Shown here: positions 2,668-61,861 of the stretch, piece after piece
Layout: every line of letters starts with the position of its first letter
Position numbering within the stretch: the stretch's first letter is position 1
Source: Microbotryomycetes sp. JL201
Taxonomy: Eukaryota > Basidiomycota > Microbotryomycetes
Direction: 5' to 3'
DNA length: 64,000 nucleotides
Assembly (NCBI GenBank): GCA_033819885.1
Contig: JAQYUZ010000059.1
Location: forward strand, 1-64,000
Translations under genes and position numbers: made by a program
The notes under the pieces: generated by a model
What the model was told of the DNA's origin: nothing
Seen by the model: the letters and a program-made list of their open reading frames with translations, nothing else
Databases searched by the model: none

Positions 2668-3070
2668 ACGTGATCAGTGAACCTCCTATTTTACTTGAAA
2701 ATTGTTACCCTGCATAAATCTGATATTTGACAGCGACTTGAAGCGACTTTGTCATGATGGAACATGCGGATAGGAGCTGCCCGAAAAAAAAAAAAACATT
2801 GGTAACGCAGCCGAGGGCCGATGTCGCCATCGCTGAGGTGAGCGCGAGAGGCCCTGGCGCGTCGACTCGGCCAAAGCTTCTTTGCTCATCTGACCACTCC
2901 TGCTCCATAACACACGGTCGAAACTCTTGCTCGTTTGATTGATCGTGTCGATCTCGTCTCCTTCTGTGTGACTCGGCACTCCTCGATTGCTTGCCAACCC
3001 GCACACCTGGGGTTTTTCGTTGACGACGCGACTTGGGCCCATCTCGCTCGCTCGTCTGACAAAAATCACA
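2668..3070. other. Intergenic region with an A13 tract
   Basis: Contains the 3' end of the dehydrogenase transcript and the PAPS reductase promoter. A run of 13 A lies at 2784-2796. No coding exon is supported; open frames here start at non-ATG codons and show no protein-like pattern. Confidence 0.5.
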
Positions 3071-4003
3071 ATGTCGGTAGAGATCGTTTCAGGTTCATCA
3101 ACAGACACGCAGCCCGTGCCATCTACAAGCACCATGCCGTCATTTGACGCCACTCGACTGGCAGAATACAATGCTCAACTGGCATCTGCGACTCCGCAAG
3201 AGATTCTCGCGTGGGCGATCGACCACTTGGGCCGCGATTTGTGGCAGACGACCGCGTTCGGATTGACGGGTTTGGCCGCCACAGACATGGTTTCGAGGAT
3301 TTCAAAGCGACGGAAGAGTGACAAACATCTCGTTCCAATGATCTTTATCGACACGCTGTACCACTTTAAAGAGACTCTGGCGTTGATCGACAGAGTCGAA
3401 CGCAAGTACAACACTCACGTACACATCTTTACGCCACCGGACGTGTCGACCGTTGACGAATTTGAAGACAAGTATGGTAGAGAACTGTGGAAGTCGGACG
3501 AAGACACGTATGACTACCTCGTCAAAGTCGAGCCTGCCAGGCGAGCATACGCTCACTTGAACGTCAAGGCCGTCATCACGGGTCGGAGACGGTCTCAAGG
3601 CGCAGACCGCGCTACGCTCGAGCCGCTCGAGCTCGACTCGACCGGACTCGTCAAGGTCAACCCGCTGTGCAGATGGTCGTTCGATGACGTCAAATCATAC
3701 ATTGACATGGCCGGCGTGCCTTACAATGAGTTGCTCGATAGAGGGTACAAGTCCGTTGGCGACTGGCATTCGACGGCTCTGCCGAGCGAAGCTGGCGACG
3801 AACGGTCAGGACGGTGGGCTGGCGACAAGAACAAGACAGAGTGCGGCTTGCACAAGGATTACTTCAAGATGAAGAAGGCATTCGAAAAGAAGAAGCGAGA
3901 GCGAGAACTCGCAGAAAAGGACAAGGCGCGAGACGAAGAAGACGGTGACGAGTCGGTTGACGTGGCAGAAACGTCCGTCAAGCTCGACGAACTTGGGTTA
4001 TAA
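3071..4003 (+). CDS. MET16: Phosphoadenosine phosphosulfate (PAPS) reductase
   Basis: Reduces 3'-phosphoadenylyl sulfate to sulfite with thioredoxin as donor, a step of assimilatory sulfate reduction in the cytosol. The gene appears intronless, unusual for this window, and gives about 310 residues, near the fungal norm. The start chosen is the ATG at 3071 (context ATCACAATG); the frame is open further upstream but without an ATG. Visible motifs: TTAFGLTGLAATDM (PP-loop region), DTLYHFKETL, the KVEPARRAYAHL and RRRSQGADRA segments, and the signature ECGLH with the catalytic Cys near residue 258. The last 40 residues are a Lys/Glu-rich extension. A mitochondrial-type thioredoxin gene lies about 9 kb away, but no specific partnership is implied. 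Confidence 0.93.
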   Translation: MSVEIVSGSSTDTQPVPSTSTMPSFDATRLAEYNAQLASATPQEILAWAIDHLGRDLWQTTAFGLTGLAATDMVSRISKRRKSDKHLVPMIFIDTLYHFKETLALIDRVERKYNTHVHIFTPPDVSTVDEFEDKYGRELWKSDEDTYDYLVKVEPARRAYAHLNVKAVITGRRRSQGADRATLEPLELDSTGLVKVNPLCRWSFDDVKSYIDMAGVPYNELLDRGYKSVGDWHSTALPSEAGDERSGRWAGDKNKTECGLHKDYFKMKKAFEKKKRERELAEKDKARDEEDGDESVDVAETSVKLDELGL

Positions 4004-7355: not shown

Positions 7356-9699
7356 TCAATCGAACTCACCCAGCCACATTTCTTGCACACTCGAACCAAC
7401 ACGACCAACGTTGTATTGTTTGATGACAGGTCCATCTTGAGATTCTTTGACGGTCACTTTGCCGTCTCCACCGGCGACTTCGACCCAGTAATTCGTTTCA
7501 ATCGTCAACTTGCCATCCTTGCCGCCTTGATTGCGCTTGCCATCCTTGGCAAACTTTGACGTCAAGTCTTCGATAAATTCTGGACATTCGACGCAAATCA
7601 AAGCGTTGTTGATCGAGTTTCGTTTGAAAATGTCTCCGAAAGAGCCGCACAAGACGAGCGGAACGCCTGACGACAGCAGGGCAGTCGCGGCTTGTTCTCG
7701 AGAGGAACCTGTTCCGAAATTGTAACCCGAAGCCAACAAGACTCCTTGCCCTGTCGTGCGATCAGGCTTTGTTGAAGGTCGCAAGGTCGACATCAAAGAA
7801 GCAAACGCAGGGTCATAGTTCTCCATGACGACATCTGCTTGCTTTTCGAGTGTAATATCGTCTTGATATGTGTATTTGCCGGGGTAAATGCCGTCCGTGT
7901 TCAGGTTGTCCTGTGGCGCAAACAGCAAAGGACCAGAAAACACCGGCGGGAACGACGGCAAGAGTGCATCGCTCGGTGCAGCAGAGTCGGCAGACACGGA
8001 TCCGGTCATCTTGTGCTCGACAATTTCAATCTGAGGAGTGTCCGAGGTAGGGTTGGCTCCCGCGATCTTGGGTCCTGTGATGTAGCCTGCGACGGCAGAC
8101 GCTGCCACAACCTCCGGCGACGCAAGGTATGCGAGCGCCTTTGGGCTGCCCATCCGGCCTTTGTAGTTACGGTTCGTGGCAGAGATGCCAACTTCGCCGT
8201 CTTCGAGCAATCCGGTGCCCAAGCCGATGCAAGGACCGCAGCCCGCTGGCAACACCTTGACGCCCGACTCGAGCAGCGTAGTCCAGTCTCCAGCCGCCTC
8301 AGATTCCTTCTGAACTACAGATGACGCGGCCGCGACGTAAAACTCTACGCCCTCTGCAATCTTTTTGCCTTTCATGACCTCGGCGGCCCGCTTCAGATCG
8401 GACGCGCGCGAGTTTGTGCAGCTGACGAGGTACGCCTTGTTGATTTTGATTTGTTCCTTCTCTAGAACGGGCAACGGGGTTGCTACTTTGACAGAGTTAG
8501 GACCGGAAACGGACGGCGATAGGGACGGCAGGTGCAGTGTCAGCGTCTTCGAGTAATGTGCGCCGTCGTCGGCAGTGATTGGGTTTGCAAAGACCGACTC
8601 GAGGCGCTCCTTTGTCAAACGAGGGTGAGGCGTATTCGGGATTGAAGATGACGCGCCAGCAAACTGGAACTTGCGCAACTCTAGCTTCTTGAGCTGACTC
8701 TCGTACCATTGCCTCAAGACATCGTCGACGGGAAACACACCGACGAGTGCTCCCCACTCTGTCGTCATATTGGAGATCGCCAAGCGTTCATCGACGCTCA
8801 ACTGGGCGATGCCTGTGCCACCAAACTCGATCGCGTGATTCAAGACTTCGTCCTTGTTGAAAGTGCCGCACAAGGCGATAATAATGTCTTTGCCCGTAAC
8901 GCCAGCAGGCAATTCGCCCTCAAGATTGACCTTGACGATTGGAGGCACTTGCCACCACGTTCTCTGCGTCGCCCACAGGGCTGCTGCGTCCGTTCTGTTC
9001 AACAGCGCTGTCAGTACAAAAGGTCAAATTTGCAATCTGCGAAAATCACCGCACCGAACAATGGGCGTGCCAACACAGCCAACTCCACCGTACATGTTGC
9101 TATGACTGTCACTGGCAACCGTCATAACGCCAGGGAATGCATAGCCTTCCTCGATCATGATCTGGTGGCCGATACCTCGTCCTGCAGGGTAAAAGTCGAC
9201 ATCCTGCTGTCCTGCAAACGCCTCGATGCGAGCATACTTTGCCAGATTGGCTTGCGAGCGGTTCTGCACGTCGTGGTCGAGCGTAAAGACGGTCTGACGA
9301 GGGTTTGAGATTTTCGTTGCTCCGATAGACTTGAATCTAAAAGGCGAGACCGCACCAGAGTCAGTCATCAGTGGCGCAAACCGACACGAGCTCTGCCGAC
9401 TCGCTTTGAAATGACTGGGCCCGTATTGTCCTGCACGAAAGACCCTCAGCATTCACGACAGGCGGCGTCAGGGTCAGTCTCAAACGTACATGAGTCATGA
9501 CGTGTTGCGGCTTGATCATGACATAGTCCCCTGCTCTCACAACGGCGCCGTCGCCGAGTCCGACCGCATGTCGCTGTACCACCTTTTCAACGTACGTTTG
9601 CGCCGGTAAGCTGGTCGGAGTGGCCAACCATCGTCGCAAAGACGATGCCAGGGCCGCCATTCGCGGTGCACACGGTCTCAGTCGTCCGGCAACAATCAT
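7356..9699 (-). CDS. LYS4: Homoaconitase, mitochondrial
   Basis: Converts homocitrate to homoisocitrate in the fungal alpha-aminoadipate route to lysine; 4Fe-4S enzyme of the mitochondrial matrix. The ATG at 9699 opens an Arg/Ala-rich presequence followed by [18 protein letters not shown]. Later blocks: [40 protein letters not shown] and [19 protein letters not shown] (first cluster-ligand Cys), then one long exon from about 9001 with [20 protein letters not shown] and [14 protein letters not shown] (remaining ligands), [15 protein letters not shown] and the swivel domain with [15 protein letters not shown] 27-base exon (DNTGPVISK) is followed by an intron at 9404-9337 that starts GCGAGT and ends TTTTAG, a GC-AG intron needed to keep frame. 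CTNSRASDL and the GRMGSP spacing favour homoaconitase over aconitase. Confidence 0.93.
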
Positions 9700-9960: not shown

Positions 9961-12219
9961 CTAATCACCAATAACGATCACGCCCACAGAATCGCCGCTT
10001 GCGCTCTTCGCCGCTCGGTTCTTGCTTGGAGCCATAACTCGGCACGCATCATCGCTCGAAGAATCGTCGCTCGACAAGAGCTCAAGCGTGTTGCGGCCCG
10101 TTTCGATAAATCTGACCGGAGCGCCTTCCTTGTTCTTCTCGGACGATTTCTGCTCGCTCCGGCAACGCGGCATCCTCTGCCTACTCGACCTCGGAGCGAA
10201 AGGGTCAGACGATGAGAAGATGCTTTTTCGATTGTCAAACGCCGCGCGTATCTCCTCGTCCGAAAACTCTTCGCTGTCATTGTCCGGAGTGGGCGTGCGA
10301 GCTCGCCTCACGCGCTCCACAAAGTCGGCCTTGGTTTGTTCTGCAACCGAAAGCAGAGTCGACTGTCCTTTCGTTTGTTGTGCAGCGGATTCGCGGCGCA
10401 CAGACGGCTTGGTCGGAGAAAGGTAAGATGAAATCTTTTGGTTCCTCTGTGACGTTGGGGGGACTTTGCTCTTCTGAGGCGACGCAGACAGACCGAGGCG
10501 CCGTCGTTCCTCGCGTTCGGCTTTTCGGGCTTGGACGGCAGCAGCCTCTTCCGCTTTGCGCCTCTTCTTTTCCTCGCGGCGGTGCTCCCAAGCATCTGCC
10601 ATCTCTCTGAAGAGCGGATGGCTCTTGATCAGCTTAACAGGAACGTCATGTCGCCAGTCGCCAATCTGTAGATCCTTGAGTTCTGCAGTCCGCCTTCCTG
10701 TGCCTACATTGTGTGGTCCGTCCGGCCATTTGTCAATCTCTGGCAAGGCGAGGCGAGTCGTTCTTGCAACGACGTCTTTGTCCATTTCAACAGTATAGCT
10801 GTCCACGTGACCACTGCATATTTTCGTTTGGCGTTGGACAATGTTGCAGACAACTGATCCCGTCGGTACGCTGAGACTGAATTGCGAGAGCGAGCGAGGA
10901 ACATTCTTGTCGATGGCAATGGCGGCCTGTCGGATCTCTCGGTGCACAAAATAGGGGTACAAGCTGCGACAGAGCGTTGTCTCGACTTCTTTCTTGCTCC
11001 ACTGAAAGGTATCGATGCACCACAACACGAGATCGGCGACAGGAATGTCTTTGTCAAACTCTGTTATTGGTTGACGTTTGTGTCCATGTACGGGAGGGTC
11101 CAAGTAGGCATCGAGCACAGGAATGGAAAAGGCGGCAGAGTCCTGACGCAAGGCTTTCGCTCCAACAAAGTTGCGCTGGCTAGACATTTTATGGGTGTTT
11201 GTTTCCAATTCGACGGCAATGCGCTCTTTCCAGTCTTTCAGGAACAGTTGAAATCGTCCTGGCTCGTGCCGAAGCTCGTTGTATTTAGCCACGAGCTCCG
11301 GCCCAAGACGAGGTGCATCGTCACCAAAGTCGCACCTCGCCAGCGCCTGAGCTCCTGTCATCCCGATTTTTCCGACTCCGTTTCCGGCGTAGTCGGCTCC
11401 GGTAAGCAGGCCAATCAGGACAAATGAGGCTCGATCAAGCCCCGTCAAGTGTTCAATGTGCTTTAAAGTATAGATCCGGTACGAATGGTCCTTTTCGTAT
11501 GGAATGCCGTCAGGCGCATCTTCGCAGACATGGGGGTGCAGCGGTCGAATGTCCTTGTTGCCCGAGAGTCCGAGAGAGTTGTGCCGCAGAACCTTCGGTC
11601 CGCCGAACAGAAGAACGTCGCTGTCATCCTGAGTTGCCCAAATCAAAGTTGAGCTTGCAAGCTGAGCTGACGTACTCGTGTTGACTCACACTTAGAATGG
11701 CATCAATCTCCCCTCGATTCGCCATGAACGCCAGTTCCGCCTCTCCGTCGCCTTTCGCCACGAGCCAGGGAAGACCAAGTATGTCGAGTAGGCGCGTGAG
11801 TAAAGAGTGTGGACTTCTGGTCGGAAAAGGAGAACGGATCCGCCTTGCCTCTGCTTCCGTGGCGGGAGGTGTGGGCGAGTTCTTCCAGGCTGGCTTTTCA
11901 TGACCGTCGAATACAAAGATGGGCAGCACGCCGTGGCACATCAGGCCGAGAATTCGCAGAAAGAGGATTCTTACGTCTGCATTGCTATTCATGCGCTCGA
12001 CTCGTCAGTTGCGAGTCAGTCAACACGCGCGAAACCCACTCACACTCCCCACTTATCCGGCGTGTTGCGAACATGGTAGTGCCAAGCAGTGGCATCGATA
12101 CCCAAGCGGAACCCGTGGTACTCGTTGCGATTAAAATGCATTGCAGCGAGATGCTGAATCGTCGAGTGGTCGACAGCATTCAGGTCCTCAATCACCTTCC
12201 ACAGTGCTGTGACGCCCAT
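9961..12219 (-). CDS. YEN1: Holliday-junction resolvase, Yen1/GEN1 type (XPG/Rad2 family)
   Basis: Structure-selective nuclease that cuts Holliday junctions and other branched DNA in recombination repair. The ATG at 12219 gives MGVTALWKVIEDLNA, the invariant N-terminal start of the XPG family. The N-domain continues with GFRLGIDATAWHYHVRN and GVLPIFVFDGHEKPAWK; the I-domain has AKGDGEAELAFMANRGEIDA joined by an intron to ILSDDSDVLLFGG, preserving the acidic metal ligands. ADYAGNGVGKIGMTGAQALA is the helix-hairpin DNA-binding element. A long, basic, Ser-rich C-terminal region follows (about 250 residues, with SSDDSSSDDA near the end), consistent with the disordered, phospho-regulated tail of Yen1. 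PFVFDG-type spacing and the long tail favour Yen1/GEN1 over FEN1 or Exo1. Stop at 9961. Confidence 0.85.
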
Positions 12220-12666: not shown

Positions 12667-13207
12667 TTATCGACCGCTGATTTCTTCTAAGAACGCTTGC
12701 ACGCGTGGCGCAGGTAAAGCGCCAGTGAATTGCCCGACGGGCTCACCGTTCCTGAACGCGACGACGGTCGGGAGCGCCCTGATTTTATACTTCATTGCCA
12801 GCTCTTGCTGGTCGTCCGTGTTGACAGTCATGAGGTCGAATTTTTCAGACTCGGGCTTGACGAGTTGCTTCAGAACTGAGACCGAAGAAGTTTGCGGTGC
12901 AGGCAAAGCGAAGATCAGCGCTGAGTGATGTGTTGCACATGATCTTTCGACATCGCCTCGCTTTGCTAAGCTGCTTTTGCCACTGATCGCTCGGAACCCC
13001 GAACTTACGCGGAGTGAGCGCTCGGCAGGGCCCGCACCAGTCGGCGTAGAAATCGACAAGAACAGTCTTCGATCCAGACACTGCTTGCGTAAATCGCTCA
13101 GGAGAGGCGTCGAGGATGTGTTGTCGACCGGTTGCCGTCGCATGGAACTGTCGCGAAGAGCTCGCCAGGACCCTGGACAGTGTTCGGGCGGTGGGTCTCG
13201 AGATCAT
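12667..13207 (-). CDS. Thioredoxin, probably mitochondrial
   Basis: Small dithiol redox protein. Two exons. The ATG at 13207 begins a Ser/Arg/Thr-rich leader (MISRPTARTLSRVLASSSRQ) typical of matrix import, followed by ILDASPERFTQAVSGSKTVL and the active site DFYADWCGPCRALTP. A GT-AG intron interrupts the Pro-Leu after the active site; exon 2 resumes LLKQLVKPESEKFDLMTVN and carries the cis-Pro loop IRALPTVVAFRNGEPVGQF before the C-terminal helix. Stop at 12667-12669. All canonical catalytic residues are present. Length (about 150 residues) equals a thioredoxin domain plus presequence. Confidence 0.93.
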
Positions 13208-13811: not shown

Positions 13812-16222
13812 ATGCCGGTCGTTGAAGCTCTGCATGCTGGCAGGCGCACACCTCAGGCGGCGACCTTTCGAATTGGGTTGCCCGCAGCGTGAGTCCGTCA
13901 CGAAACGTGACATATACGCAGTGGTGCTCAAGCAATTCATGGATCCTGGAACAACCTCCTACCGCCCTGCTGTGCGTATTTGCGCCGTAAACTGACCACT
14001 GCTTTCGCGCTTTGGCCTCGCCCCTTTCAACGCGCAGCTGGCTCGCAATTGCCGCTGTCTGGTGCTTGACACCTTTGTCATGGCTGTACACGATTTGGTT
14101 CATTGCCACGTGCTCTCCAGCTCTGGCTCGAGGTCGACCGACACCAACAACGCTCGCGCTGGCGCTTCAATCCGTCATCTTCGTCTTCACAACCGCAGAG
14201 GTCATATTCTCCATCATTTACAGGTGGATGGCCATCCGAGCGAACCGTTTACGACCGCCCCCTCGGTATACACGAAAGTTCCTGCGGAGCGTCTTGAAAA
14301 GATCACTGGAAGCTGGCTTAACGATCGAAGAGGCAGAGCATGAAATAGAACAAGAGGCTGTAGCCGAGCTCAAGTCCCGCAAGCTGTCGGAGAAACTCCG
14401 TCGCAAGCTCAGCGGACGGGGAAGGAGAGCGCGGGCCTCCAGTAGTGGGCAATACGAGCTGAGGACAAGGGTCAACAGCGGTGGAGATGGCGCTACTACC
14501 CCAGAACTGGGCAAGGAGCTACAACTTGCATCAGAGCCGATCTCTTCCTCGGAGAAGTCAGCGCTTGAAGCAGTCGGCAATCCGATACAGCCACCCGCTG
14601 CCGCTCGCCGAGAAAGAGATCTCCGAATTAGAGGCGAAGACGAAGGCTACAGGTCAACTGAGAGTCTGGGTGGACGCTCCATCACAAACGGCTTCAAAAA
14701 GCAATACACTTCATCCTTCGCTGACTCGACCCTGACTCCTGAGGACGCTCGCGCTGTCGACTTTCGCTCGTGGCTCATCCATTGGTTTCTTGGCACGAAT
14801 TCGTTCGAAGACGTGCGTCGCGACAACATAGCTGAGTGGCTAGCGTGGAGCCTCTATGGGGTCACGCTCGAGCAGCTCGAGCAAGAGAGGGAAACGTGGA
14901 TCGCGAATGGCAAGCCGCCTCAACAGCACGTAGACGGCCAGCCTGACGAAGACGACGACGGTCTCGATATCACGCAGGACAAGCTTGGCCTCGTTGGTAA
15001 GCCGCGCAGCGTGCCCATCCTGTGACGTTTCTGACTGAATTGTCCCTCAGAGCATTGCATCGAAATGATTGAGGCCCGAGCGGCGTGCAAGTTTGATTCG
15101 GGCCGTAACCCGCACATCAAGACGATCCGTCTCACACTGGATCCCGTTCGGGTCACTCAGCGACCGCTGTTGCTTTACAGTAAGTCTGAGAGGGCCTTGT
15201 CGCAGGCCTTTGCTGATGTGTTACTCGCAGTGTTCGTTGCAGCGCTGCAGCTCATTGTCACGCTAAAGCTTAAGGCACGCGGGTTTACCGAGATTCGCGA
15301 TGGCGACACTCGTTATTTGATCCGCATCCCGAAAGGCTGGAAGCCATCGCGGCAGTGTCCCGAGTCGCACCGCCCATTCATGTTTGTACACGGCCTCGGC
15401 ATGGGTGTTGTGCAGTACGCCTCGATGCTGTCGTACCTCTCGTCCGTCAAGACGCTAGCACATCGTCCGATCATCATTCTCGTCCAGCCGCACATCAGCA
15501 TGTCCATCTTCACCAAGTATCATCGACTGCCGCCCTCAGAGTCGACGTGTTGTGCGGGCATTGAGCGCATGGCAAAGTCGTGGGGTTTTGACAAGTCGGG
15601 CATGACCATTCTCAGTCATTCAAACGGTACAGTGAGTAGCTTTTGGGGATCGATTGGCCGCAGGCTCCCTGCTGACAAAGTACTGTCCCAGATCGTACAT
15701 GCATGGATACTGCGTAACCTGCCGCACCTCGCCATCCGCAACGCATTTGCCGACCCAGTCACATTCCAACTTTGGGAGCCATGGGTGTGTCGCAACTTTC
15801 TCTACCAGTACAAGAATCCAAAAGAGCCGATGGAGTACATCATGCGCTATTTCGTCGCGCGCGAGCTCGGCGTTGCGTTGCTGCTGCAGCGTCATTTTGA
15901 TTGGTCGAGCAATTTATTGTGGCCGACAGAGATACCGAACGTTTACTCGCCTTGGCATACGAGCATCTTTTTGTCGAGCGAGGACGCGATTCTCAATGCG
16001 GAGAGGATGCGGCGTTACCTCCGCTCACACGGTATTCGAGAAGTCAGGCGCGGCGAGAACGTCGGACCAGGCAGAGGAGGGCTGAAAGTGCATCATGGCA
16101 AGAAGCACGGTGAATCGATGATAGGAGGATCAGGTCTCGCCTTTACTCAGATCATGGCGTGGGTGACGAGCGAAGCGAGCGAGAGTGGACTTGCCGAGGG
16201 CGATACAAGTGCAGCGGAATGA
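13812..16222 (+). CDS. Membrane-anchored alpha/beta-hydrolase (tandem copy 1, intact)
   Basis: Probable serine hydrolase of unknown substrate. The exon at 13812-13888 (MPVVEALHAGRRTPQAATFR) joins in frame, across an intron ending CGCGCAG, to two hydrophobic helices (WLAIAAVWCLTPLSWLYTIW and SVIFVFTTAEVIFSIIYRWM). A charged, Ser-rich linker of about 200 residues follows, then a second domain. The hydrolase core starts near GWKPSRQCPESHRPFMFVHG; HGLGMG supplies the oxyanion loop and ILSHSNGT is the nucleophile elbow (S-H-S-N-G, a variant of GxSxG). SSEDAIL and HHGKKHGE provide plausible acid and His. Introns at GLV/EHC and LLY/MFV are shared with the pseudogene downstream. Stop TGA at 16220-16222. 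The first exon is inferred from phase only. Confidence 0.75.
15332..15774 (+). repeat. 443-bp identical tract, copy A (inside the intact hydrolase)
   Basis: Matches 17347-17789 base for base as far as I can read: all three forward frames and the reverse frames translate identically. It starts at AAAGGCTGGAAGCC and ends at CCAACTTTG. Sequence on both sides is homologous but clearly diverged, so this is a homogenised block inside an older duplication, not a fresh duplication. Confidence 0.9.
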
Positions 16223-16572
16223 GGCATCAGGACATGGGTCATACATAGCAAACAGTCTCCCACATTGTTGTATTTACACGGCCAGGAACCTCATGACTGA
16301 AAGTGCTGCGAATCTCTGTGCTTCACATTGGAGTAGGTCACTGCGCTGAGTCAGTGTTGGTGAGCGGACGATTCGCCATCGCAAATCAGGAGCTTACTCC
16401 ACAGACTTCCGAAGAGCCGTCCCGCCACTCGGTGGCTTTCCTGCACCACCGCAATCATGCGGACAAGAAGCCCGTCCAGACTTGATTCAGTCCCAACTCT
16501 GGCCTCACTCGGTAGGCGAGTGGCGATCACGCTCTGCGAAAGCTACTGAGCGCTCACCACGTTTCTCTACAG

Positions 16573-18168
16573 CTGGCTCATTATCGGTCTGTTTAGATCG
16601 TTCACGCCTCTATGCTTCATTTATCTGCTTTCTTGCCTACTTCGGAGACCGCCTGCGTCACTCAAGGAAGTGATTTTCTGACTGTGGCCCGTGGCAGAAG
16701 TTGTATTCTATCTCGTTCACCGTTGGCTCGCAATGAAAGCTAACGCGTTGCGAGCGACGAAGACATCCTGCGCAGCTGTTCTCGAGCGGGTCTTTGAACA
16801 ATCCCTCCTCGAAAGTCATCCACTTCGACTTGAGACTGATTTGTGCTGTTGCGACGCACATGTGTCAGAGTTTCGGCAATGGCTGTTACAATGGTTCATA
16901 GGCGCAGACGATATCAGGCAGATCCACAGAATGGACATTGAAGCTTGGCTCTCTTTGAGCCTATTTGGTGACGGCCAGATACCAATGGGCACGTAAGCCG
17001 AATCAATCAGTGAGCATAAAGATGCCAAGGTTGGGCAAGACCTCATCCGCTCTGCAAGTAGCAGACTTCATGGATCTAGTGCGAAAGCGAGCAAGATGGG
17101 CTTTTGCTGAGGGATACAATCCCCGGGTGAAAAGTATTAGATTGACGTTGGATCCAGTGCGCGTGACGCACCGCCCACTCTTTCTGTATGGTGAGGCGAG
17201 CTTGTGTTTGTTTTCGCTCGACTTTGCTGAGTGTGACCTTTGCAGTGGCTATCGCAGTGGCGCAAATGATCGTGACAAGAAATCTTCAGCGGCGCGGATT
17301 CGTTGAAGTACGTAATGGGAGCACGCATTATCTTGCTCGACTACCCAAAGGCTGGAAGCCATCGCGGCAGTGTCCCGAGTCGCACCGCCCATTCATGTTT
17401 GTACACGGCCTCGGCATGGGTGTTGTGCAGTACGCCTCGATGCTGTCGTACCTCTCGTCCGTCAAGACGCTAGCACATCGTCCGATCATCATTCTCGTCC
17501 AGCCGCACATCAGCATGTCCATCTTCACCAAGTATCATCGACTGCCGCCCTCAGAGTCGACGTGTTGTGCGGGCATTGAGCGCATGGCAAAGTCGTGGGG
17601 TTTTGACAAGTCGGGCATGACCATTCTCAGTCATTCAAACGGTACAGTGAGTAGCTTTTGGGGATCGATTGGCCGCAGGCTCCCTGCTGACAAAGTACTG
17701 TCCCAGATCGTACATGCATGGATACTGCGTAACCTGCCGCACCTCGCCATCCGCAACGCATTTGCCGACCCAGTCACATTCCAACTTTGAGAGCCCTGGG
17801 TTTGCCTATCGTTCCTGTATCAGGCGCCGAGAGCACCAATGGAATACATCATGCGCTATTTTGTTGTGCGCGAGCTTGGCGTTGCTCTCGCCATGCAACG
17901 CCACTTCAGCTGGTCCAGTAACGCGTTGTGGCCCGATGAAGTCCCGAACCTGGGGTCGCCGTATCAGACGGCAATATTCTTATCGGGCGATGACCGGATC
18001 GTCAATGTCGAGCGCGTGCAGCGGCACCTGATAGCGAATGGTGTGCGCAATAAAGCAAACCACGGAGGGTTGCGGGTGTACAAGGGCAAGAGTCACGGAT
18101 TGTCGCTGAGATGCGGAGACGTGGTCATGCTCAATGACGTGCTCGAGTGGCTCAGTAGCGAGCATTAG
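16573..18168 (+). pseudogene. Tandem copy 2 of the membrane alpha/beta-hydrolase (pseudogene)
   Basis: Paralogue of the gene just upstream, about 2.0 kb downstream in the same orientation. After an acceptor at CTCTACAG it reads WLIIGLFRSFTPLCFIYLLS, later VVFYLVHRWLAMKANALR and FRQWLLQWFIGADDIRQIHR, matching copy 1's membrane and linker-end segments, but the Ser-rich linker is largely missing. The later exons (KSIRLTLDPVRVTHRPLFLY, then RRGFVEVRNGSTHYLARLPK) keep copy 1's intron position. Two in-frame TGA codons break it: 16679-16681 in the second hydrophobic segment, and 17788-17790, where copy 1 has TGG just at the end of the identical tract. Beyond that the frame stays open and homologous to the stop at 18166-18168. 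The mostly open frame suggests recent inactivation. Confidence 0.8.
17347..17789 (+). repeat. 443-bp identical tract, copy B (inside the hydrolase pseudogene)
   Basis: Partner of 15332-15774 at a constant offset of 2015 bases. It spans the oxyanion loop and nucleophile elbow of the catalytic domain. The first mismatch at its right end is the G-to-A change that makes the in-frame TGA. Confidence 0.9.
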
Positions 18169-18580: not shown

Positions 18581-19897
18581 TCCAAGAAGCCAGTTACGAC
18601 GCCAGAAGAATGGTCAAACCGCCTCGCAGGCGTTGCCATTTCGAAAGAGTGAGTGCAGCGCTTTTTCCTCGGCGACCGCACGAGAACGAGCCACGGGTTG
18701 GACGGGGCCGCACAATACAGGGATGAAACTATATCAGAAGTGGGAATCTCTCCATAGCGCAAAGCGCAACGAGGACACAACATTACTTCGCAGCTGAAAA
18801 TCGATGCGGCCCCCCGTTTTGGTCAAGAAAACGGTGTCGAAAAGACACACAACGCTGACGTGAGGGTTGCGCGCGATCCGCAGAGACATGAACGCAATCA
18901 TCGCCAACTACTTGTTTACGGAAGGCTACTCTGCAGCGGCGAGAAATTTTACGCGCGAGGCCAACATTCAACCGCCAATCGACCTCGAGAGTATTGAAAG
19001 CCGCATGGCGATACGACGCGCCGTTCAGAGTGGACAGGTCGAGAATGCAACCATCATGGTCAACGAGCTGGATCCAGAGGTGAGCCTTGCACGGCGCAAG
19101 CCACGGCGTACACGCGATCAGGTGGACGGGCAACGATTATACATTTCTATGCACCACTCTCAGAGATACCGTCCACATGGTTGTAATTACCGCTCGGATC
19201 TTGGCATCTCTTTGATGATTATAGAGACAACCACAAACGTCAACGATGAGCTCGTCCACCCGTTCGCAGTCTCGCGCCAGTTTCTGCGGTCCCTGTCGGT
19301 GTGAGCAGGCGCTGACCCCGTTGACGCCTTTTGCAGATCCTGGACACCAATCCAACTCTACATTTTCATCTGCTGCAGCTCCAGCTCATCGAGCTGATCA
19401 GGCACGGCCGCATCGCTGAAGCGCTATCCTTTGCACAACTCGAGTTGGCTCCCAAGGGCGAAGAGAATCCTCAGTTCCTCAAGGAGCTGGAACGGACCAT
19501 GGCTTTGCTTGCATTCGAGCTACCAAAGCTAGCGGCGACCGGTGGCACAGTTGTGACAGCACCTGCGCCTGTTCCAAGTACGACCGGGAAGCGATCAAAG
19601 AGTGGAGCTAGCTCGGCCACGGCATCCGCTGCAGACGCAGCGCCACCGCCTATGCCAGAGGCCATCTCGTCCTTGCTTGATCAGAGCCAGCGACTACGGA
19701 CAGCCGCCGAACTCAATGCCGCCATTCTATCCGCGCAGTCGCACAGCAAAGATCCCAAGCTGCCCGGCCTCATGAAGATGCTCGTGTGGGGCGAGACAAT
19801 GTTGGCAGAGAAAGGAGCAGAGTTTCCTAAGTGGGACTTTCACCAGTTGCTGGCCCCTTCAAGATCGATTGACGACCCGGAAGCGATGATGTTATAA
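18581..19897 (+). CDS. GID8: GID E3 ligase complex subunit 8 (LisH-CTLH-CRA protein)
   Basis: Scaffold subunit of the GID/CTLH ubiquitin ligase that degrades gluconeogenic enzymes in yeast. Exons read KKPVTTPEEWSNRLAGVAIS, then DMNAIIANYLFTEGYSAAAR (LisH), ESIESRMAIRRAVQSGQVE and LDPEILDTNPTLHFHLLQLQ (CTLH), then RHGRIAEALSFAQLELAPKG and the CRA region to the stop at 19895-19897. A Ser/Ala/Pro-rich insert sits in the CRA half. The intron at 19081-19336 is 256 nt, several times the local norm. The first coding exon is missing from this call and lies upstream of 18581. The LisH-CTLH order and the near full-length match make Gid8 more likely than Gid7 or RanBPM homologues, which carry extra WD40 or SPRY domains. 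Confidence 0.87.
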
Positions 19898-38127: not shown

Positions 38128-40159
38128 TCACAGGCCAAAGACCAAAGTCGCGAGAACCAGCAGAGCGTAAAGTGAGACGCTCGGAGCGATCGACCCAGCC
38201 TTCGAGGTAATGATTCGGCGGGTGGTTGGATCAATGCGGCTGCCTTTGAGTGTGACTGTGCTTCCTGCAGCATAAGTCTTTGTTGACAGAACGGCTTGTC
38301 CACCTCGTGAGATGGTCAGCACTTCCTCGACAGGCTGTGAGATGACGGTCGTCGTTCCTCGTTCCGTGCCTTGATCTTTATCATTACCGATACTCGGATT
38401 CACTCTTGGCGTATCACCCGGCTTACTGGCTGGGTTGGCGCACTGGTTGTTCGTGCAGCTGCTAGAGCTGCACATGCGATCTTCGCTGCAAGCCGCGCCG
38501 ATTGCTCGCTGATTGAGACGCTCGCAAGCGTAGGTCGCCGCGCTGCCGCTGGCCGAGCCCTGTGCAAGACAATATCCTGACGCGCACGCTGCCGAGTCTT
38601 GCGGTTCACACTTCTCGCCATCAGGCGCAGGTCCGGTCGGTGGCGGGGCACATTTGGCTGTGGCAGAATCGCAGACGCCTGCGACAGCGGTCTCAAGTAA
38701 GCACCTGCCTCAAATGTGCTTGCCTGATTGGATGAGAACCTGCCTGAGCTGCATTCTGCACCCGCCGTGCACGAGTGACCGTCATCGTAAGGGGGACGAG
38801 CGATGCAATATCCGGGCGTCCCCTCGCAAGTCATCGAACCCTTACACTGGGCAGAGTTTGCGCAATGCTCGCCCTCCTCCAGGGTGGCAGAAATGCTTTG
38901 TGGGTCCGTGCAGGACGACTTGTAGCAGAACGAGCTATCGCATTCGCCGTCACCGGAATCGCCCGAGCAACCCTGGCCGAGACCCGTCTTTGGCGACGCC
39001 GACGAGCACGTTCCAGAAATGCAGTTGTTTTGACAGTTGAGGCTGTCAAAACAACTCGCTCCATCAGGCTGCAAGCTTTTGCTCGAGTCCCTTGGGTCCA
39101 CGCAGACACCTTTGTCGCACCATGGCTGGTACAGACCGGAGCAGTCCGCTGAGCCGCTGCAGGAGTCTCCGTCCGCGCCACCTTGCTGTACGCAGATCAA
39201 TTTGTCGGTGGCGGACGAACAGTCCGCATCTGCTGCACAGATGCACTGAGGGTCCGCGTACCTCTGTGCGGCGCATTTTTAGCCCGCCGATTACTCTCGG
39301 TCCCAGTGGCAATGGCTCACACTTGCGCACATGTCGGCAGTTAGGCAGTGAAAGTTTCTAGCGATTGTCTTTGAGACCTTGGCCGGGTCAACGCAAGTCT
39401 TGTCTTCGCGGCAGAACTTGCTCGCGCAGTCCGAGTCTTGTGTGCAAGTGGCGTCCTCCCCAAGAGATCCGGGGCTGACGCCACCTGGCGGCGATTTGCA
39501 GACGAGGTCGTCTGTTTTAGAGCTGCAGTCGCCCTGTTCCGCGCAATTCTCAGCCCCTTACACACAACTCCGCGATAAGATCGGTACTCACCCCGTCTTT
39601 GCACGCGCAGACACTGCCTTGGGTGAACTGAGCACGATCCGCTCTGCATCAGCGACGTCACAGGCACGTGGAAGAAATTGAGCTCACGCCCTGACACGTG
39701 CGAGTGTCTACGCAATGCTCTCCCGGAGGCAGCTGACCGAGAGCGTATGCAACACACACTCGACCGTCAGCTGTTGATGGCGTACTGCCGCCAAGACCGA
39801 GGCCTGCGCGGTTGCACAGTGTCGTTGCACATTCTTCGTCGTAGGTGCAGGAATCGCCTTCCGCAAGAGTCCCAATGAGTGGGACCACTGGGATCCTGAC
39901 ATAGCAGTGAACTCGATTGTGAGACTTTCTTGCCGGAAGGACTGGCTTTGACTACTCACTCCTGACATTCGCAATCGCTTGCGCCGTTGCACTTGGAATT
40001 TGTCGATAATGATACACAGTAAGCACATTCTGCAGTCCCCGCATCCTGGTCCGTACAAGAGGAGCCTGGCCAACGAGGACGGAGGATGGGGGTGGCGAGT
40101 GCTGTGGCCGCTGTGAGGACGAGGACGAGTGCGAGACAGAAACGGCCTAAACGCATCAT
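38128..40159 (-). CDS. Secreted cysteine-rich, GPI-anchored surface protein
   Basis: The ATG at 40159 starts a clear signal peptide (MMRLGRFCLALVLVLTAATA) followed by TPILRPRWPGSSCTDQDAGT. Several exons then carry repeated cysteine modules such as EGDSCTYDEECATTLCNRAG, GEHCVDTRTCQG, DGDSCSGSADCSGLYQPWCD, DGASCFDSLNCQNNCISGTC, LGQGCSGDSGDGECDSSFCY, EGEHCANSAQCKGSMTCEGT and DGHSCTAGAECSSG. Each unit follows G-x-x-C-x(5-8)-C-x(4-8)-C, like short disulfide knots. The last exon has a Ser/Thr-rich stalk and a hydrophobic end (SIAPSVSLYALLVLATLVFG) after small residues, the mark of GPI attachment. Likely a cell-wall or surface protein; binding partner unknown. Similar modules occur in fungal proteins annotated only as Cys-rich. 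Internal exon ends are approximate. Confidence 0.78.
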
Positions 40160-48532: not shown

Positions 48533-51464
48533 TTAGTCGGCTCGCCGAACGGCGGCGGCAGCTTGCATAACGCGAGCCCACTGCTGCGTAGCAGTGCCTT
48601 GTCCAAGAGGATGCCGAGGCATCTCGAATCGAATGCTGCCAGACCAGAATGGACCCTCGCCCGCTTGTTGTCGCCCACGAGAGCGCAGCCTAAAGGGATG
48701 TGCTTCAGTCGTGAAAACCCAATCGTCAAGCGAGAGCAAGTCGAGAGGCGAGAACAGCAAATAGTAATATTTGAAGCTGCACGGGCATGAACCACAAAGG
48801 ATCCATGTCATTGACGTTTGTACTTAGGCACGCGCTCGAAAAAGTTCGACTCACGTCTCGGAAAAGACAAAGCTCTCGATGCCAGTGTCCTCGTGGACCG
48901 GCTTGTCCGAATTGATCTCGTCCACGTTCGCCAGCCCATGCTCGACTATTGTGGCCTTTATCCAGTTCGTAAACATGGTCCATCCCTTGTCCTGAAAACA
49001 CGTTGAGCGTCAGCCACCGTTCTCATGGTCAGAAACAAACGCATGTCGGCCGACCTGATATCCTCGATCTCCCGTGATCCGGTACAAGTAAAACAGCGAC
49101 TCGATAGTCTCAGGTCTCTGTATCGACCGAAATTCGCCCGAACGAACTCCGGTCGGGTCGCCTTTGATCGCTTTTGCCTCCGAGCCATCTTCCATTTTGA
49201 CCTTTGTCCACCGATCAGGATCGTGCGGGGACCACAGATGCAAAATCTCTGCACCGAGCCCAGTTCTAGTAGAATCGTACGCCCAGACGCAGGCGTTCAT
49301 GAATTGCTTGGCTGTCACAAGGTCGTGTGCTCGGTCGAGCAGTCGTGCACCAAGCGCGAGCATACCAGCGGCAAACGCGGTCAGATGGTCTGCCATGTTC
49401 TCATTCTCTCGTCAGTGCAACCTTGCCTGTGTTTGCGGGAGTCTTGCCCGACTCACCCAGCTTGGGCTGATTGCGAGAAAGAGTGATCAGTCTTTGCAGA
49501 TCAGCTCGGCAAAACAGGCAACACACGCACAACTAGGCCTGTAACTAGCTTGCCTCCGCGATTCTCGTTGAAATGTAGGTCCGAGAACGTGACGGCATCG
49601 TCCAAACCTGGCACGACCGTGATCGGATGCAGGAGCACTTGACGTGCAGAGTCCATCGCAGCCTTGTACATTCGCGAATACTGCTCGGCCTGTCCATCTA
49701 ATAGTTGATGCATCTTGAGCAAATATTCGTAATAGCTATCTGCCTGACCGCCCATCGTATAAACGCCGGGCAGGAAACGCTGTTCTTCGGGATCTGAAAG
49801 CGCACCCAATGATCAACATTCGAGCAGTCGCGCTTCGGGCAAGCTTACTAATTTGCGTCGGGAACAGATGAGGCACTCGTTCTTGCGCTTTAAAATTATC
49901 GAGAGTGTCCATGGCACGAGAGATCTGTCGACATAAGTTGACATAGATGAGCGTCATTGACTTTGAAAATGAGCGGAACTAGTAACCCACAGTCTCAAAA
50001 TAGATGGGATCGCCGGTGATCTGACTCAGCCTGGTAAACTCCATCGAGACACTACCGACTTCTGCAATGCAGACCTGTCCGGTGACGGCGCCATCTGGGT
50101 GCAATCCGAGTCGATACGTAGGTACAAGCAAACCGCTGCGCGTTGACATGCTCGGTAACAGCCAGTCGCCTAGCTCAATAGCCCGCTCGAGCATCAAAGG
50201 GTCACCTGAAAGGTCGTATGCACTGATCATCGAGCCGAGATAGCGAATCACGGTTTCGAAAGTAGGAATGCCAGGCGGAGAGGCGAGTGGAGCTGGCATG
50301 CCAACGAGCGTCCCTTGACCTTCACCGACAACCGGCAAATTATCTTGAGATGGATAGGCATAACGGGTTGGATCCGGCGGAGAAAGGTAGGTAAAGTCGA
50401 CGCCTGCCACGTGCTCTCTGGCAAGTAAATATTCTTCTTCAAGGCCCATCACAAGGAGCGTGTCACTGTTTAAGGTGTCAGATCACATCTCGACTGATTG
50501 ACACACGCGCCACTCACAGAGCGTCAAAAATTGTAGCTCCCCAGCCGGAGAACTTGTCAGTCGCCGACGCGCTCAGTGGTCGAAGCTCATCATGACCCCA
50601 AGCATGCGCTTTGTAGTCTGTGAGAAAAATTGAATTGGAGGAGTAACTCATTGTCGCAAGAAAGCACTCACTCTCCCACACGTGTAAGAACGCTCGACGG
50701 ACCCATTCTCTCCTTTGAGAATCTTGCGCTTTCTGCGCAGAAGATAAGTCGTCTGCTACGTGCAATTGCACACGAGGCATCATCACGGCATTGTCCAGAC
50801 TGCGCATTTTCCACCAAGTCGGTCCACGAAATAGCTTGTCGCGTGGGATTTGCAGAGGCCGGCCGGTCGTGTCATTGAAGCCTTCTCCCTTGCGTAGATT
50901 TTTACGTCTCCAATCTCCTCGAGACAGTGCAAAGACTCGAAATGCCCGTTGAACTGTGTCTTCCGGCACTTGAAAAGGAATCGCAGGCCGTTTGGTGCCG
51001 AGGCCAATCCTGTTCCTGAGCTCTTGCATGCCCTCAGTTTCCGCCTCAACTCCGAGCGTCCCTTGAGCAGGAGGGAACCTATCGCCAGACAACCAGCGTA
51101 CTACAATATCCGAGTTTAAGCTCGACCAAGGGTCAGGCCAGCTCGGTGGCAACGGGTGCCTAAATTGAGTACCATTGCGCCATGCAAACACGGGGAGGTC
51201 TGGATATGGATCGAAAGCCGCAGTAGAGTTCGTGCGACCGTTGCTGACTGTCACATGGCCTGACCTCGTCCTGAGAGCCGAATGGTACAGGATGACCAGC
51301 CATAGGCTCATGCCACCGAGCAGCGTAGCTAGTGCGAGTCGAAAGCTGCCGAGCGATCTGACATAGTGCTGTAGCGTTGCTGTCCATGGCAAGTGTCCGG
51401 CTGCTCGACTGATTGAGCTCGAGTCGGCGGCATTCAGGCGGCTGTAGCTGTGCTCGCGCGTCAT
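48533..51464 (-). CDS. Alpha-1,2-mannosidase, glycoside hydrolase family 47
   Basis: Trims alpha-1,2-mannose from N-glycans in the ER or Golgi, inverting and Ca-dependent. The ATG at 51464 starts a short cytosolic tail followed by a signal-anchor helix ([20 protein letters not shown]), i.e. type II topology. The catalytic domain begins near [13 protein letters not shown] and [14 protein letters not shown], followed by [147 protein letters not shown] and the Ca-ligating [14 protein letters not shown] near the end. Those are the GH47 signature blocks in the right order; the acidic catalytic residues lie in ETIES and related blocks. Stop at 48533. Confidence 0.92.
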
Positions 51465-51619: not shown

Positions 51620-54348
51620 CTAAGCACCTGGTTCAGTCCGTAGTCCACCGACAACTGCATCAACCTTGACCAAGACTTCCTCCCATTCTTTTGCTGGGTC
51701 CGAGAGGTGAGTGATGGCGCCCCCGGCGCCGAGCGACAATTCTGTAGATCAAAGTCAGTACTTTCTAACATACGACGAGCGCCTCAAACACAAGAGGCTC
51801 ACCGTCGCCACGGAGAATTAGGGTTCGAATGACGACAGACAAGTCCGTTGTTCCGTCAAACGCCACGTACCCGAAAGCTCCTGTAGCGCACGCGTCAGCT
51901 GGAGTACTGGGGGACTTGCCAGCTCAGAGCTCACCCGAGTATACGCCTCTCGACTGCCGTCCTTCGAGATCGTGCAAGATTCTAAGAGATCTTAGCTTTG
52001 GTGCTCCAGTCATCGATCCGGGGGGAAACGCTTGCTCAACGGCCTGAACAGGCCCGACACCAGGTTTGAGCTTTCCAACGACGCTAGTCACGAGCCTTTC
52101 ACAAAGCTTGATCAGTATCGAGCACGAGTCAAACTAGGAAACTTGAGGCACTCACTGATGAACAGTCTCGTAGGTCTCGACGACCATCAAATTGGGTACT
52201 TGCACACTCTCGACTTCACAAGAGGCGAGCAAGTCATTCCTCGACAGGTCGACAATCATAAGGTTTTCTGCACGCTCCTTCTCGTCTGCTTCAAGCGCTT
52301 TTCGTCGCCGCTCGTCCTCTTGTGGATCGTGCCGAACACGTTTGACAGTCCCCTTGATTGGCTTCATCTCAATCCAACCTTCTTTATCGATGTGCATGAA
52401 TCGCTCTGGCGAAGACGACAGCAATGCCAGGTTTGACATGGGCAAACGAAAGTAAGACGAATACGGTGCCGGGTTGCCATTCCTCAGGCCAAGGTATAGA
52501 TCGAACGGGTCTTGTGCGACATCGGCGGAAACCTTGCTTCGGAATTGTGTCGTGAGGCATAATTCGTACGTGTCGCCCGATCGTATCCGCGACTGAGCTT
52601 CTTCGATAGCTTCAATGTATTGCTCCCGACAGACCGAAGGTCGAGGGCGACTCAGCCAAGGTGATCCAACATTCACATTATCCACCCACTCATCGTTTGA
52701 TGCTGCTTGTAAAAGGGCAAAGCTTGATGACAGTTCGCTCGTCCAAGCGTCCCATTCTCTCTGACTCAGTCCGAAACCAGCCAAGTCGTGGGCATCGGTC
52801 TCGTCAAAACAATCGTCTTTCACGAGAGCGCTCGCGGACCAGGAATCACTTTCGTGGTCGAATGTCAAGATGGCGCTTGCAAGCGCAAACTCTGCCTGTG
52901 GAGGCTCCGGATCTGCCTGCTCTCGGCGGGACAGTGGCATCGATTCTTCCCTCATTTCGTATCCGAAGAACCCAACGAAACCTAATGGAGGAGTCCGTGT
53001 GGGATCGGAATGCGGAGTCGTTTTCTCCTTCAGGCGCTGTTGAGCTCGATCAAGGTGTGTAAAGAAAGAGTGACCTTGATCCAGAACCATCTCGGTAGAC
53101 TTCAAATCCCGATCTCGAATAGTGATTGTCCGGGAGTGAGCCGAGTACGACCATGTCGCAGTTGGCTGGAAGAGATGCGAGGACTGAGGTTTGCCGCTGG
53201 CCTAGCCACGAAGTGTGTCAGATGCATGATGACTCAGCGATTTCGAAACACATACCCTGGCAGAATCCAGCCAGATCTCGCCAAGCCGGTTCTTGCCTTT
53301 GACAAATCGTCTAAAGACGTGCTCCGGTACAAGCCCTGTAAGATTGCCTATAACCGTGCTCTGCACGCGCCACAGAGGCGAAGGCAATTGTCGAGATTTC
53401 ACAACACTTTCCAAGCTCGTCGAAAGTCTTGTGATGTAATGTGGCAGAGCTCTTTGCGCGGTCTTGTTGATCGTGCGCAAGTGTCGCAGAGCAAGTCGTA
53501 GAAAGTTGGACAGCGTGCGGGCGCCAAAGCGAGAGCACACGGACTACGAGGGATTCAAGTCAGCATTTGCTGTCTCCGAGACTGGCCACGCTCACCTCAA
53601 GGTGGTACTGAACGCCCCATAGCGGTTTCGTTCGGTGTCGCAGAGCCAGAACTTCTTGCTGACCCTGGTTTTCTGCCCAAGCTATCGGTTCCAAGTCGGA
53701 CGGGATCGAGCTAGGGTCTACGGTCAAGCTGTTGTACTGGACCGAGTCAAACTCGTTCGGAACGCCTCCATACAGCTCGTCCGCGGAGTGGCAAACTTTT
53801 GTCATCTGGCCGTGGCGGGGAGCTGCAGCCGGGCGAACCTGTGGAGACAATTGAGTCACGTAAAATCGAGATCATGAATAGACTACTGACTGAAGCTCCA
53901 AATGTAGTTGCCAAACCTTGATGTCCCAGACACAATCCGAAAATGGGCAACTCATCGCCGAACTCTTGAATGAGCCTCGTCGGCCATGAAAAGTCTTGCT
54001 CCTTGTGAGGGGAGCCTGGACCAGGTCCTAGAATGATGCAATCGATGTTGGGAAGGATGCTCGACACAAAATCGGTCCTGTGGCAGCGCGGAAATTCGTC
54101 ATCTGTGAGTGCAAGCTTGTGACTGCCGAGACGGCCCTCCTGCCACTTCCGTAAGCTCACCAGCTAATAGAATCGACATTGACAATGACGACCCTGTCTT
54201 GCCATCCGTTAGCGTGCCACAGCGAACCGCCGTCGAGCTTGACGATCTCGTTGAACAGCGCCAGCAGGTTGCGCGTGTACGAGTCGTGGTGCTCGAGGAT
54301 CAATGTTGTGGGCACATGCTCTGCAGACGAGCTGGGTCCAATCGACAT
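51620..54348 (-). CDS. ABZ1: Aminodeoxychorismate synthase (fused PabA-PabB type)
   Basis: Makes 4-amino-4-deoxychorismate from chorismate and glutamine, on the way to p-aminobenzoate and folate. The ATG at 54348 (MSIGPSSSAEHVPTTLIL) begins the glutamine amidotransferase domain: HHDSYTRNLLALFNEIV, CIILGPGPGSPHKEQDFSWP, FGLCLGHQGLATTFG with the nucleophile Cys, VQYNSLTVDP and LWGVQYHLE. The PabB half follows: FVGFFGYEMREESMPLSRRE, QYIEAIEEAQSRIRSGDTYE, CLTTQFRSKV, SPERFMHIDKEGWIEMKPIK, GTVKRVRHDP and ENLMIVDLSRNDL, then FPPGSMTGAPKLRSLRILHD and GGAITHLSDPAKEWEEVLVK with the stop at 51622-51620. The lysine in PIKGT favours aminodeoxychorismate over anthranilate synthase. Gene order GATase-PabB matches fungal Abz1. 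Confidence 0.92.
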
Positions 54349-60200: not shown

Positions 60201-61861
60201 CAATGTTGAGGAGCAAAGTCGCCAGTTGTATGACGTTGCTCATTTCACACTTTGACGTTCTTGGTGCGAGGTCGAGTACAGAAGCGAAGAAGGAGCAGGA
60301 GCGCATTGACGCCGCTCGGGTTCAGATGAAAGAACACTTGGCCAAGCGTTTCGCAGAGTTGCAGAGCAACCTCAAGTCAGTTCAAGAGTACGAGCAGGCT
60401 GAGCCCGATGAGTTTCCGTTCGGTCTCGGGGCAGAGAGTCTTGGAACGTTGGCGGACGCGTGCGACCGACGGCTGGAGGCGCTGTCCGAGGTTGAGCAAC
60501 AGCGACAAGAGATTGAAAAGTCCACGAGGATGGTAGGACGCGTGCTGAATCGAGAGACGGCGGAAGAGAACGCGCTCGCTTTCTTGGCATCGTCTTCTTC
60601 CAACATATCAATTCGCTGGCAACAGGGCAAATATATTGGTGCAGGTACTTTCGGCACTGTGTACCTCGCCGTCAACCTCGACTCTGGTCAGGAACTCGCC
60701 GTCAAGGAGATTCGCTTTCAAGCGCTCGCCAATGCCCCGCACTTGATCAAGACTGTTCGAGACGAAATGAAAGTGATGGAAATGCTTCGACATGAGAATA
60801 TCGTCCAGTACTATGGCATTGAAGTGCACAGGGACAAGGTCTACATTTTCGAAGAGTACTGCCCTGGAGGCTCTTTGGCAAATTTGCTGGAGCACGGCCC
60901 TATTCAGGAAGAGTTGATCGTGCAACTGTACGCGCTTCAAATGTTGAATGGTTTGGTATACCTGCACTCCCAAGACGTTGTACATCGCGACATCAAGCCG
61001 GACAGTCAGTCCAATCACAAGTTTTCCCGAGCAATTGCTGACGATCCTGCGGCTCAGACATTCTGCTCGATGCCAATGGCACAATCAAATTTGTCGATTT
61101 TGGTGCTGCGAAAGTGCTTGTCAAGGGTCAGAAGACGCTAGCGGGTCTCAGTCGGATGGCTGCCCAGGGCAAAGGGCACTTCCTTGACGCTGCCAACGGA
61201 GCCATTCCTGGAGCCGAACAGAATTCGTTGACCGGCACGCCAATGTACCTCAGTCCGGAGACGGTTAAAGGAGAAAGGCGAGGCAAAAAGGGAGCAATGG
61301 ACGTGTGGGCTGTAGGATGCGTTGTGCTCGAATGCGTCACGGGTCATCGACCTTGGTCAAATCTCGACAACGAATGGTGAGCAATTCTTCCTCCCGAGCG
61401 CAAGGCGTTCTTTGTTTGACATTCCCTTTCGTTCCAGGGCCATCATGTTCACGATTGGCATTGCTTCGCAGCATCCTCCGCTCCCAACGCGCGATCAGCT
61501 TTCGGAACTCGGAATCGATTTCTTGCGAGCAGCTTTGACCATTGATCCAGATGAGCGTCCGACGGCCGCTGAGCTACTCGACCATCCGTGGATCAAAGAT
61601 TTCCGTGAACAGTTGGCCGCGATGAACGAGGAAGAGTCAGGTGACTCTAGTTCATCACGTGGTCTGTCGCCCGCCCCTTCAAGAGCTTCCTCATCATTTG
61701 GGTCGACTGGTACGACGATCGTGTACGAAGAAGACGAGGAGGAGCAGCAAGCCGAGCAGTCACCTACTCGATATCCCGGGGACAGTACTGTTTCGAAAGA
61801 GGCGAGCTATCCCGAAGGCACGATTCAGGAGGAACCTGAGCCTGAAGACGAAGCGCAATGA
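57265..61861 (+). CDS. SSK2: MAP kinase kinase kinase, Ssk2/Ssk22/Wis4 type
   Basis: Stress (HOG/Sty1) pathway MAPKKK that phosphorylates the Pbs2-type MAPKK after osmotic or oxidative signals. The conservative start is the ATG at 57265 (MPVRAPPTASANALARANAK); an in-frame ATG at 57052 would add about 71 residues. Exons continue GRRNLGTNSFVGIKR, HSGMHDVEDDPDRLYYSRGL, the long conserved regulatory region (RQRAYAIWLLIRAKIRGRSA, RIKIAVSILKVWTGGEWEVL, MLQRFENSAEYTLDNIDFSL, IGEDDSTHYILLLSPRDPF) that binds the response regulator Ssk1, and the kinase domain from GKYIGAGTFGTVYLAVNLDS. Catalytic residues: ELAVKEIRF (Lys), VHRDIKPDNILLD (intron inside), KFVDFGAAK (Mg loop), TGTPMYLSPETVKGE and MDVWAVGCVVLECVTGHRPW. 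A Glu-rich tail ends at 61861. Kinase plus N-domain make this firm. Confidence 0.92.

Follow-up and report, generated by a model that had tools for sequence, protein, structure and literature searches.

A 443-base identical tract, attributed to recent gene conversion, between an apparently intact hydrolase-like gene and its broken tandem copy in Microbotryomycetes sp. JL201

The window analysed here, the first 64,000 nucleotides of contig JAQYUZ010000059.1 (assembly GCA_033819885.1) from the basidiomycete Microbotryomycetes sp. JL201, contains a tandem pair of hydrolase-like genes on the forward strand, the upstream member (copy 1) apparently intact and the downstream member (copy 2) broken. 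The two genes are clearly diverged along most of their length but share a stretch of 443 identical bases, and the origin of this tract is the subject of the present study. The features of the pair are as follows.

14039..16222, plus strand: copy 1, apparently intact; predicted exons 14039-14996, 15051-15179, 15231-15631 and 15692-16222
15332..15774, plus strand: identical tract in copy 1, the same as 17347-17789 at 443/443 bases
15389..15406, plus strand: HGLGMG in the tract, an oxyanion-loop-like motif read from the translation and named from general knowledge
15614..15628, plus strand: SHSNG in the tract, a nucleophile-elbow-like motif (Ser codon 15620-15622), also named from general knowledge
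15632..15691, plus strand: predicted intron inside the tract in copy 1, 60 nt, GTGAGT...CTGAC...CCCAG
15983..15985, plus strand: codon for the putative catalytic Asp in copy 1 (FLSSED), beyond the tract, placed by alignment
16106..16108, plus strand: codon for the putative catalytic His in copy 1 (KKHG), beyond the tract, placed by alignment
16574..18168, plus strand: copy 2, broken; predicted exons 16574-16992, 17030-17190, 17246-17646 and 17707-18168
16679..16681, plus strand: second in-frame TGA of copy 2, in its upstream exon as modelled by alignment with the N-terminal part of copy 1
17191..17245, plus strand: predicted intron 2 of copy 2, GTGAGG...TTTGCAG, counterpart of 15180-15230
17347..17789, plus strand: identical tract in copy 2, the same as 15332-15774 at 443/443 bases
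17647..17706, plus strand: predicted intron inside the tract in copy 2, 60 nt, identical to 15632-15691
17788..17790, plus strand: TGA in the frame of copy 2 at the tract's right edge; its counterpart in copy 1 (15773-15775) encodes tryptophan
17791..18168, plus strand: frame of copy 2 after this TGA, 125 codons and a stop at 18166-18168, with the Asp (17992-17994) and His (18094-18096) positions kept

All introns are predictions from GT..AG ends, a CTRAY branch-like site and alignment of the copies, and positions 14039 and 16574 are the limits of the exon models rather than established 5' starts. After splicing, copy 1 is an open frame of 672 amino acids. Its predicted introns, 14997-15050 (54 nt), 15180-15230 (51 nt) and 15632-15691 (60 nt), are all GT..AG, and each has a CTRAY branch-like site 18-20 nt upstream of the intron end. 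The exons of copy 2 align with the four exons of copy 1 in the same order and carry two in-frame TGA codons. The first intron of copy 2 (16993-17029) is doubtful, being 37 nt long, placed by hand and below the length limit of the automatic list; the second was also placed by hand, from the alignment with copy 1, and has good ends without a CTRAY site. The introns at 15180 and 17191 interrupt the same codon phase in both copies. A frameshift in copy 2 near 17190 was considered and rejected, as the predicted intron at 17191-17245 accounts for the change of frame, and the retention of this intron outside the tract likewise led to the rejection of a processed pseudogene or retrocopy origin for copy 2. 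The intron at 17647-17706 may have been carried in by the tract and adds nothing independent to the case against a retrocopy. In both copies this 60-nt intron stands directly after the nucleophile-like motif (15632-15691 and 17647-17706), and its retention would add 20 residues and keep the frame; because its length is a multiple of three and it has no in-frame stop, an open reading frame finder reads through it. A sequence-only reading of the frames made before this analysis had recognised the tract but overlooked the introns, among them the one within the tract and that at 17191-17245, as well as the in-frame TGA of copy 2 at 16679. The N-terminal part has 139 codons in copy 2 (16574-16992) against 319 in copy 1 (14039-14996); most of the long charged N-terminal linker of copy 1 is missing from copy 2, and the architectures before the catalytic region differ much.

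Read by eye, the translations suggest that both genes encode serine alpha/beta hydrolases with hydrophobic N-terminal segments. SHSNG, the Asp and the His follow one another in the same order in the two aligned copies, and these, together with HGLGMG, are putative serine alpha/beta hydrolase features. No match to a family model or to the sequence of a solved structure was returned when Pfam, NCBIfam and PDB sequences were searched with the protein (thresholds E 0.1 to 10). The structure model, covering three rows of unspliced window frames, had a mean predicted local distance difference test score (pLDDT) of 40.6, too poor for fold comparison. The description of copy 1 as a membrane hydrolase, with which the locus had been introduced, is backed by the motifs and by hydrophobic segments seen by eye, but not by any Pfam, NCBIfam or PDB sequence match.

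Base-by-base comparison gave 443/443 matching bases between 15332-15774 and 17347-17789 at an offset of 2015, exactly as first read, and the match can be extended at neither side. The alignment of both copies has the form of a sharp block of identity between diverged flanks. When the catalytic regions are aligned as nucleotides (1029 ungapped columns), 376/586 columns outside the tract are identical and the second-longest identical run is 17, against 443 for the tract. None of 10,000 shuffles of the alignment columns reached a run of 443, the largest shuffled run being 61, and the identity is therefore far longer than the flanking divergence predicts. It also reaches sites that should be nearly neutral, with no difference across approximately 90 synonymous sites and 60 intron sites (approximately 150 in total), which places the 95% upper bound on divergence in the tract near 2%. 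At the right edge, the first mismatch is followed by others 6 and 12 bases further downstream, so the true right end may sit a few bases past the first mismatch. In the species' own assembly (17,152,241 bases, 92 contigs), where match counts cover the best-scoring candidates with very common words skipped, the tract had two matches, both at the tandem pair, among the matches listed, and 6/6 matched pieces of the copy 1 protein fell in copy 1 and copy 2 in the same way. A third copy elsewhere in the genome was sought, and none appeared among the scored nucleotide and protein matches.

The flanks were compared by Nei-Gojobori counts on the spliced gene models, given here as the proportions of synonymous (pS) and nonsynonymous (pN) differences. 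For the N-terminal exon, pS is 0.84 and pN 0.42 (151 aligned codons, with many gaps); for the exons before the tract the values are 0.83 and 0.33 (75 codons), for the tract both are 0 (127 codons), and after the tract they are 0.73 and 0.29 (126 codons). Binned pS goes from 0.88 to 0.81 on approach to the left edge (the nearest bin having 38 codons) and runs 0.90, 0.72 and 0.57 away from the right edge (nearest bin 42 codons, farthest 41), so that synonymous similarity does not rise toward the tract edges and the lowest pS lies in the bin farthest from the tract. Nucleotide identity in the five flank bins, from left to right, is 0.53, 0.56, 0.69, 0.61 and 0.53. Among 104 pairs of codons for the same amino acid in the catalytic flanks, with Met, Trp and stop codons excluded, the same codon is used in 0.346, while random draws give an expectation of 0.370 (standard deviation 0.045), and a value at least as high arose in 3691 of 5000 draws. 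By these counts the catalytic flanks are synonymously saturated, and on the evidence of the two sequences the duplication is old and the exchange recent. The initial view that the sequence outside the tract is homologous but clearly diverged is confirmed.

Recent interlocus gene conversion, in either direction and with or without earlier rounds, is very probably the explanation of this pattern. The earlier preference for conversion over recent duplication receives strong support from the synonymous saturation of the flanks and the absence of any difference within the tract, intron included. That reading had also allowed for unequal exchange; here conversion is upheld, while unequal exchange alone fits less well, because two diverged genes persist on both sides and a non-reciprocal copy would be simpler. 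A conversion without crossover would have moved approximately 443 bases between the members of an ancient tandem pair, the converted stretch comprising a 60-base intron and part of the exon on each side of it. The transfer may reflect break repair in the recipient by synthesis-dependent strand annealing, with the neighbour 2 kb away as template; one tract edge would then be the point at which copying started, and the other the point at which the new strand returned to the recipient. The right-edge TGA could have arisen either by mutation after the event, at or just beyond the edge, or as an older lesion of copy 2 at the place where the tract stops.

Some observations weigh against conversion as described. 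Reported conversion occurs mainly above 80% identity and is possible below that level at a low rate (PMC3924818), and the present flanks, at 0.53-0.69 per bin, are well under it, although the identity of the tract before the event may have differed from that of the flanks. The farthest downstream bin has a pS of only 0.57 (41 codons), which means that saturation is uneven along the gene. The comparison is also confined to the two copies in a single genome assembly. Related loci were sought by pattern, and viral contigs gave no matches while prokaryote genome contigs gave 11 pattern matches, none of them confirmed. A single event between tandem genes approximately 60% identical and synonymously saturated, tract included, would lie far under the usual homology limit, and its probability is put somewhat short of even. 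On this reading, which carries the same probability, the organism or the locus would be able to use a neighbour as template even where the edges offer little homology, by microhomology-guided template switching.

A variant compatible with recent conversion is that repeated homogenisation of the catalytic core after the duplication kept the tract from diverging as far as the flanks, the present identity being only the latest round. A standing patch of identity would supply the homology and remove the problem of recombination at approximately 60% identity, and fog-2/ftr-1 of C. elegans has a fully identical patch of 70-72 bp beside its converted region (PMC3966223). This variant, the chief alternative view of how such an exchange came about, is held to be less likely than not; no shoulder of intermediate divergence accompanies the tract (the nearest bins have pS of 0.81 and 0.90), which tells against repeated rounds unless the tract limits stayed constant across them. 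There is only a slight chance that the tract is an artefact of assembly or consensus, in which the core of one copy was supplied by, or merged with, that of its neighbour: the 443-base repeat exceeds short-read length, but both junctions preserve the homology register and the reading frame. Cores as diverged as the flanks would, moreover, share no long words for joining, and the merging of near-identical paths could mask a few differences but would not create the contrast with the flanks. Strong selection could in principle hold the core identical without any exchange, given that the oxyanion-like and nucleophile-like motifs both lie inside the tract. Against this stand the approximately 90 synonymous sites and the 60-nt intron, without a difference beside saturated synonymous sites, and the 42 codons just after the tract, which are also conserved in protein (pN 0.15) yet have a pS of 0.90. 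Constraint without exchange was rejected on the unchanged intron and synonymous sites between saturated flanks, and retains next to no probability.

The fate of copy 2 is a separate matter from the exchange. The nonsense codon reported at the right edge, TGA in copy 2 for TGG in copy 1, was recovered, the differing base being an A at 17790, and the remainder of copy 2 is open as had been said. Repeat-induced point mutation as the origin of this stop is unsupported: under the sequence-context rule for that process, the changed G is preceded by G and not by T, and the repeat has no other differences. Copy 2 has the premature stop in a homologous frame that characterises a duplicated pseudogene, by the TGA at 17788-17790 and, under the gene model used, also by that at 16679. 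Translation of copy 2 would end just past the tract, before the putative catalytic Asp and His are reached, and the copy is therefore most likely an inactive relic. Copy 2 could still be alive if the edge stop were spliced out or bypassed, or if a truncated product were useful. The 125 open codons past the stop favour this, as do 21 in-frame GT/GC..AG pairs that would remove it (candidates of 35-150 nt, divisible by three, with donors at 17707-17788 and acceptors up to 17899), but a CTRAY branch-like site is absent from all 21, their donors look weak, a truncated product would be without the putative Asp and His, and a second TGA stands at 16679. A living copy 2 is accordingly considered improbable. 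The upstream TGA is itself not certain to be a real stop: 13 in-frame intron candidates would remove it and keep the exon open, and the one judged most intron-like, 16587-16697, which could do so, has a weak donor (GTCTGT) and a branch-like site 20 bases before its end. A recent loss of copy 2 through the edge stop, as first proposed, is partly supported: it agrees with the open and protein-conserved sequence after the stop but is complicated by the second in-frame TGA at 16679. Low pN beside saturated pS shows that the pair was long constrained and fits a late loss of copy 2, though pairwise counts cannot assign the constraint to one copy.

With conversion as the preferred explanation, the evidence on its direction leans weakly to a transfer from copy 1 into copy 2. 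Codon usage in the tract leans to copy 1, with a log-odds of +13.5 when all flanks are used. Two results count against reliance on this figure: it exceeds the held-out ranges of both copies (-5.4 to 8.9 for blocks of copy 1 and -15.1 to 10.3 for blocks of copy 2) and is therefore poorly calibrated, and the log-odds from the catalytic flanks alone, +10.5, is within the held-out ranges of both copies. The reverse direction, in which copy 2, perhaps while still unbroken, served as template for the intact gene, is less favoured but still a substantial possibility. The content of the tract is compatible with it, and, pN being lower than pS between the copies, copy 2 may have worked and been an acceptable donor for most of its history; the codon usage that leans, weakly and with poor calibration, to copy 1 is what speaks against it.

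Of the window frames scanned for families, 8/10 had a listed family. Pfam matches in other frames were to PAPS reductase (2987-4000), aconitase (7359-9002), XPG nuclease (9964-11646), glycosyl hydrolase 47 (50517-51464), anthranilate synthase (52155-53105) and MEKK4-N / protein kinase (57661-61138), and a Colipase match at 38403-39200, counted among the 8, was below the Pfam cut-off. By eye, frames at 18867-19897, just downstream of the pair, resemble a LisH/CTLH protein of the Gid8 kind, and overlapping minus-strand frames upstream, at 12667-13207, resemble fragments of a thioredoxin gene interrupted by an intron.

Maximum likelihood (ML) estimates of mean tract length in yeast range from about 50 to several hundred bp (PMC3924818), and a length of 443 bases fits these estimates. 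Adjacency is reported to favour conversion despite moderate divergence (PMC3966223). In the tandem genes fog-2 and ftr-1, which have 82% coding identity and a synonymous divergence (Ks) of 28%, conversion reaches introns; the present pair resembles them in being adjacent paralogues with a tract of limited length, but differs in flank bins that are 53-69% identical with saturated synonymous sites (PMC3966223). Ectopic conversion between Aspergillus paralogues also includes introns and has introduced stop codons into converted genes (PMC12844118). The present case is alike in that fungal paralogues have been homogenised, introns included, with stops in converted genes, but the Aspergillus pairs with stated values are 94 to 100% similar, whereas here only the 443-base core is identical and the flanks are saturated.

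The CYP21A2 pair is similar along its whole length. At this human disease locus (PMC3924818), and likewise at GBA1 with its pseudogene (PMC12075325), a functional gene exchanges sequence with a defective neighbour on its own chromosome, an arrangement that the present pair resembles. The GBA1 pair is described as having high sequence identity (PMC12075325); in the present pair, high identity is confined to the tract. The process is of a known kind; what is unusual is the contrast of saturated flanks and an identical core, and the case is mildly surprising in degree.

The tract may also have consequences for the locus itself. Recombination within it that deleted 2015 bases would fuse the front of copy 1 to the broken end of copy 2, and, because the fusion would carry that broken end, selection should disfavour such a deletion. 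The pair is a clean example from nature of a conversion tract with sharp edges and an intron inside it, shared by two paralogues with no detectable synonymous similarity left in their catalytic flanks. Provided that the tract had diverged to the same extent beforehand, the case would bear on the minimum homology needed for ectopic conversion in a eukaryote.

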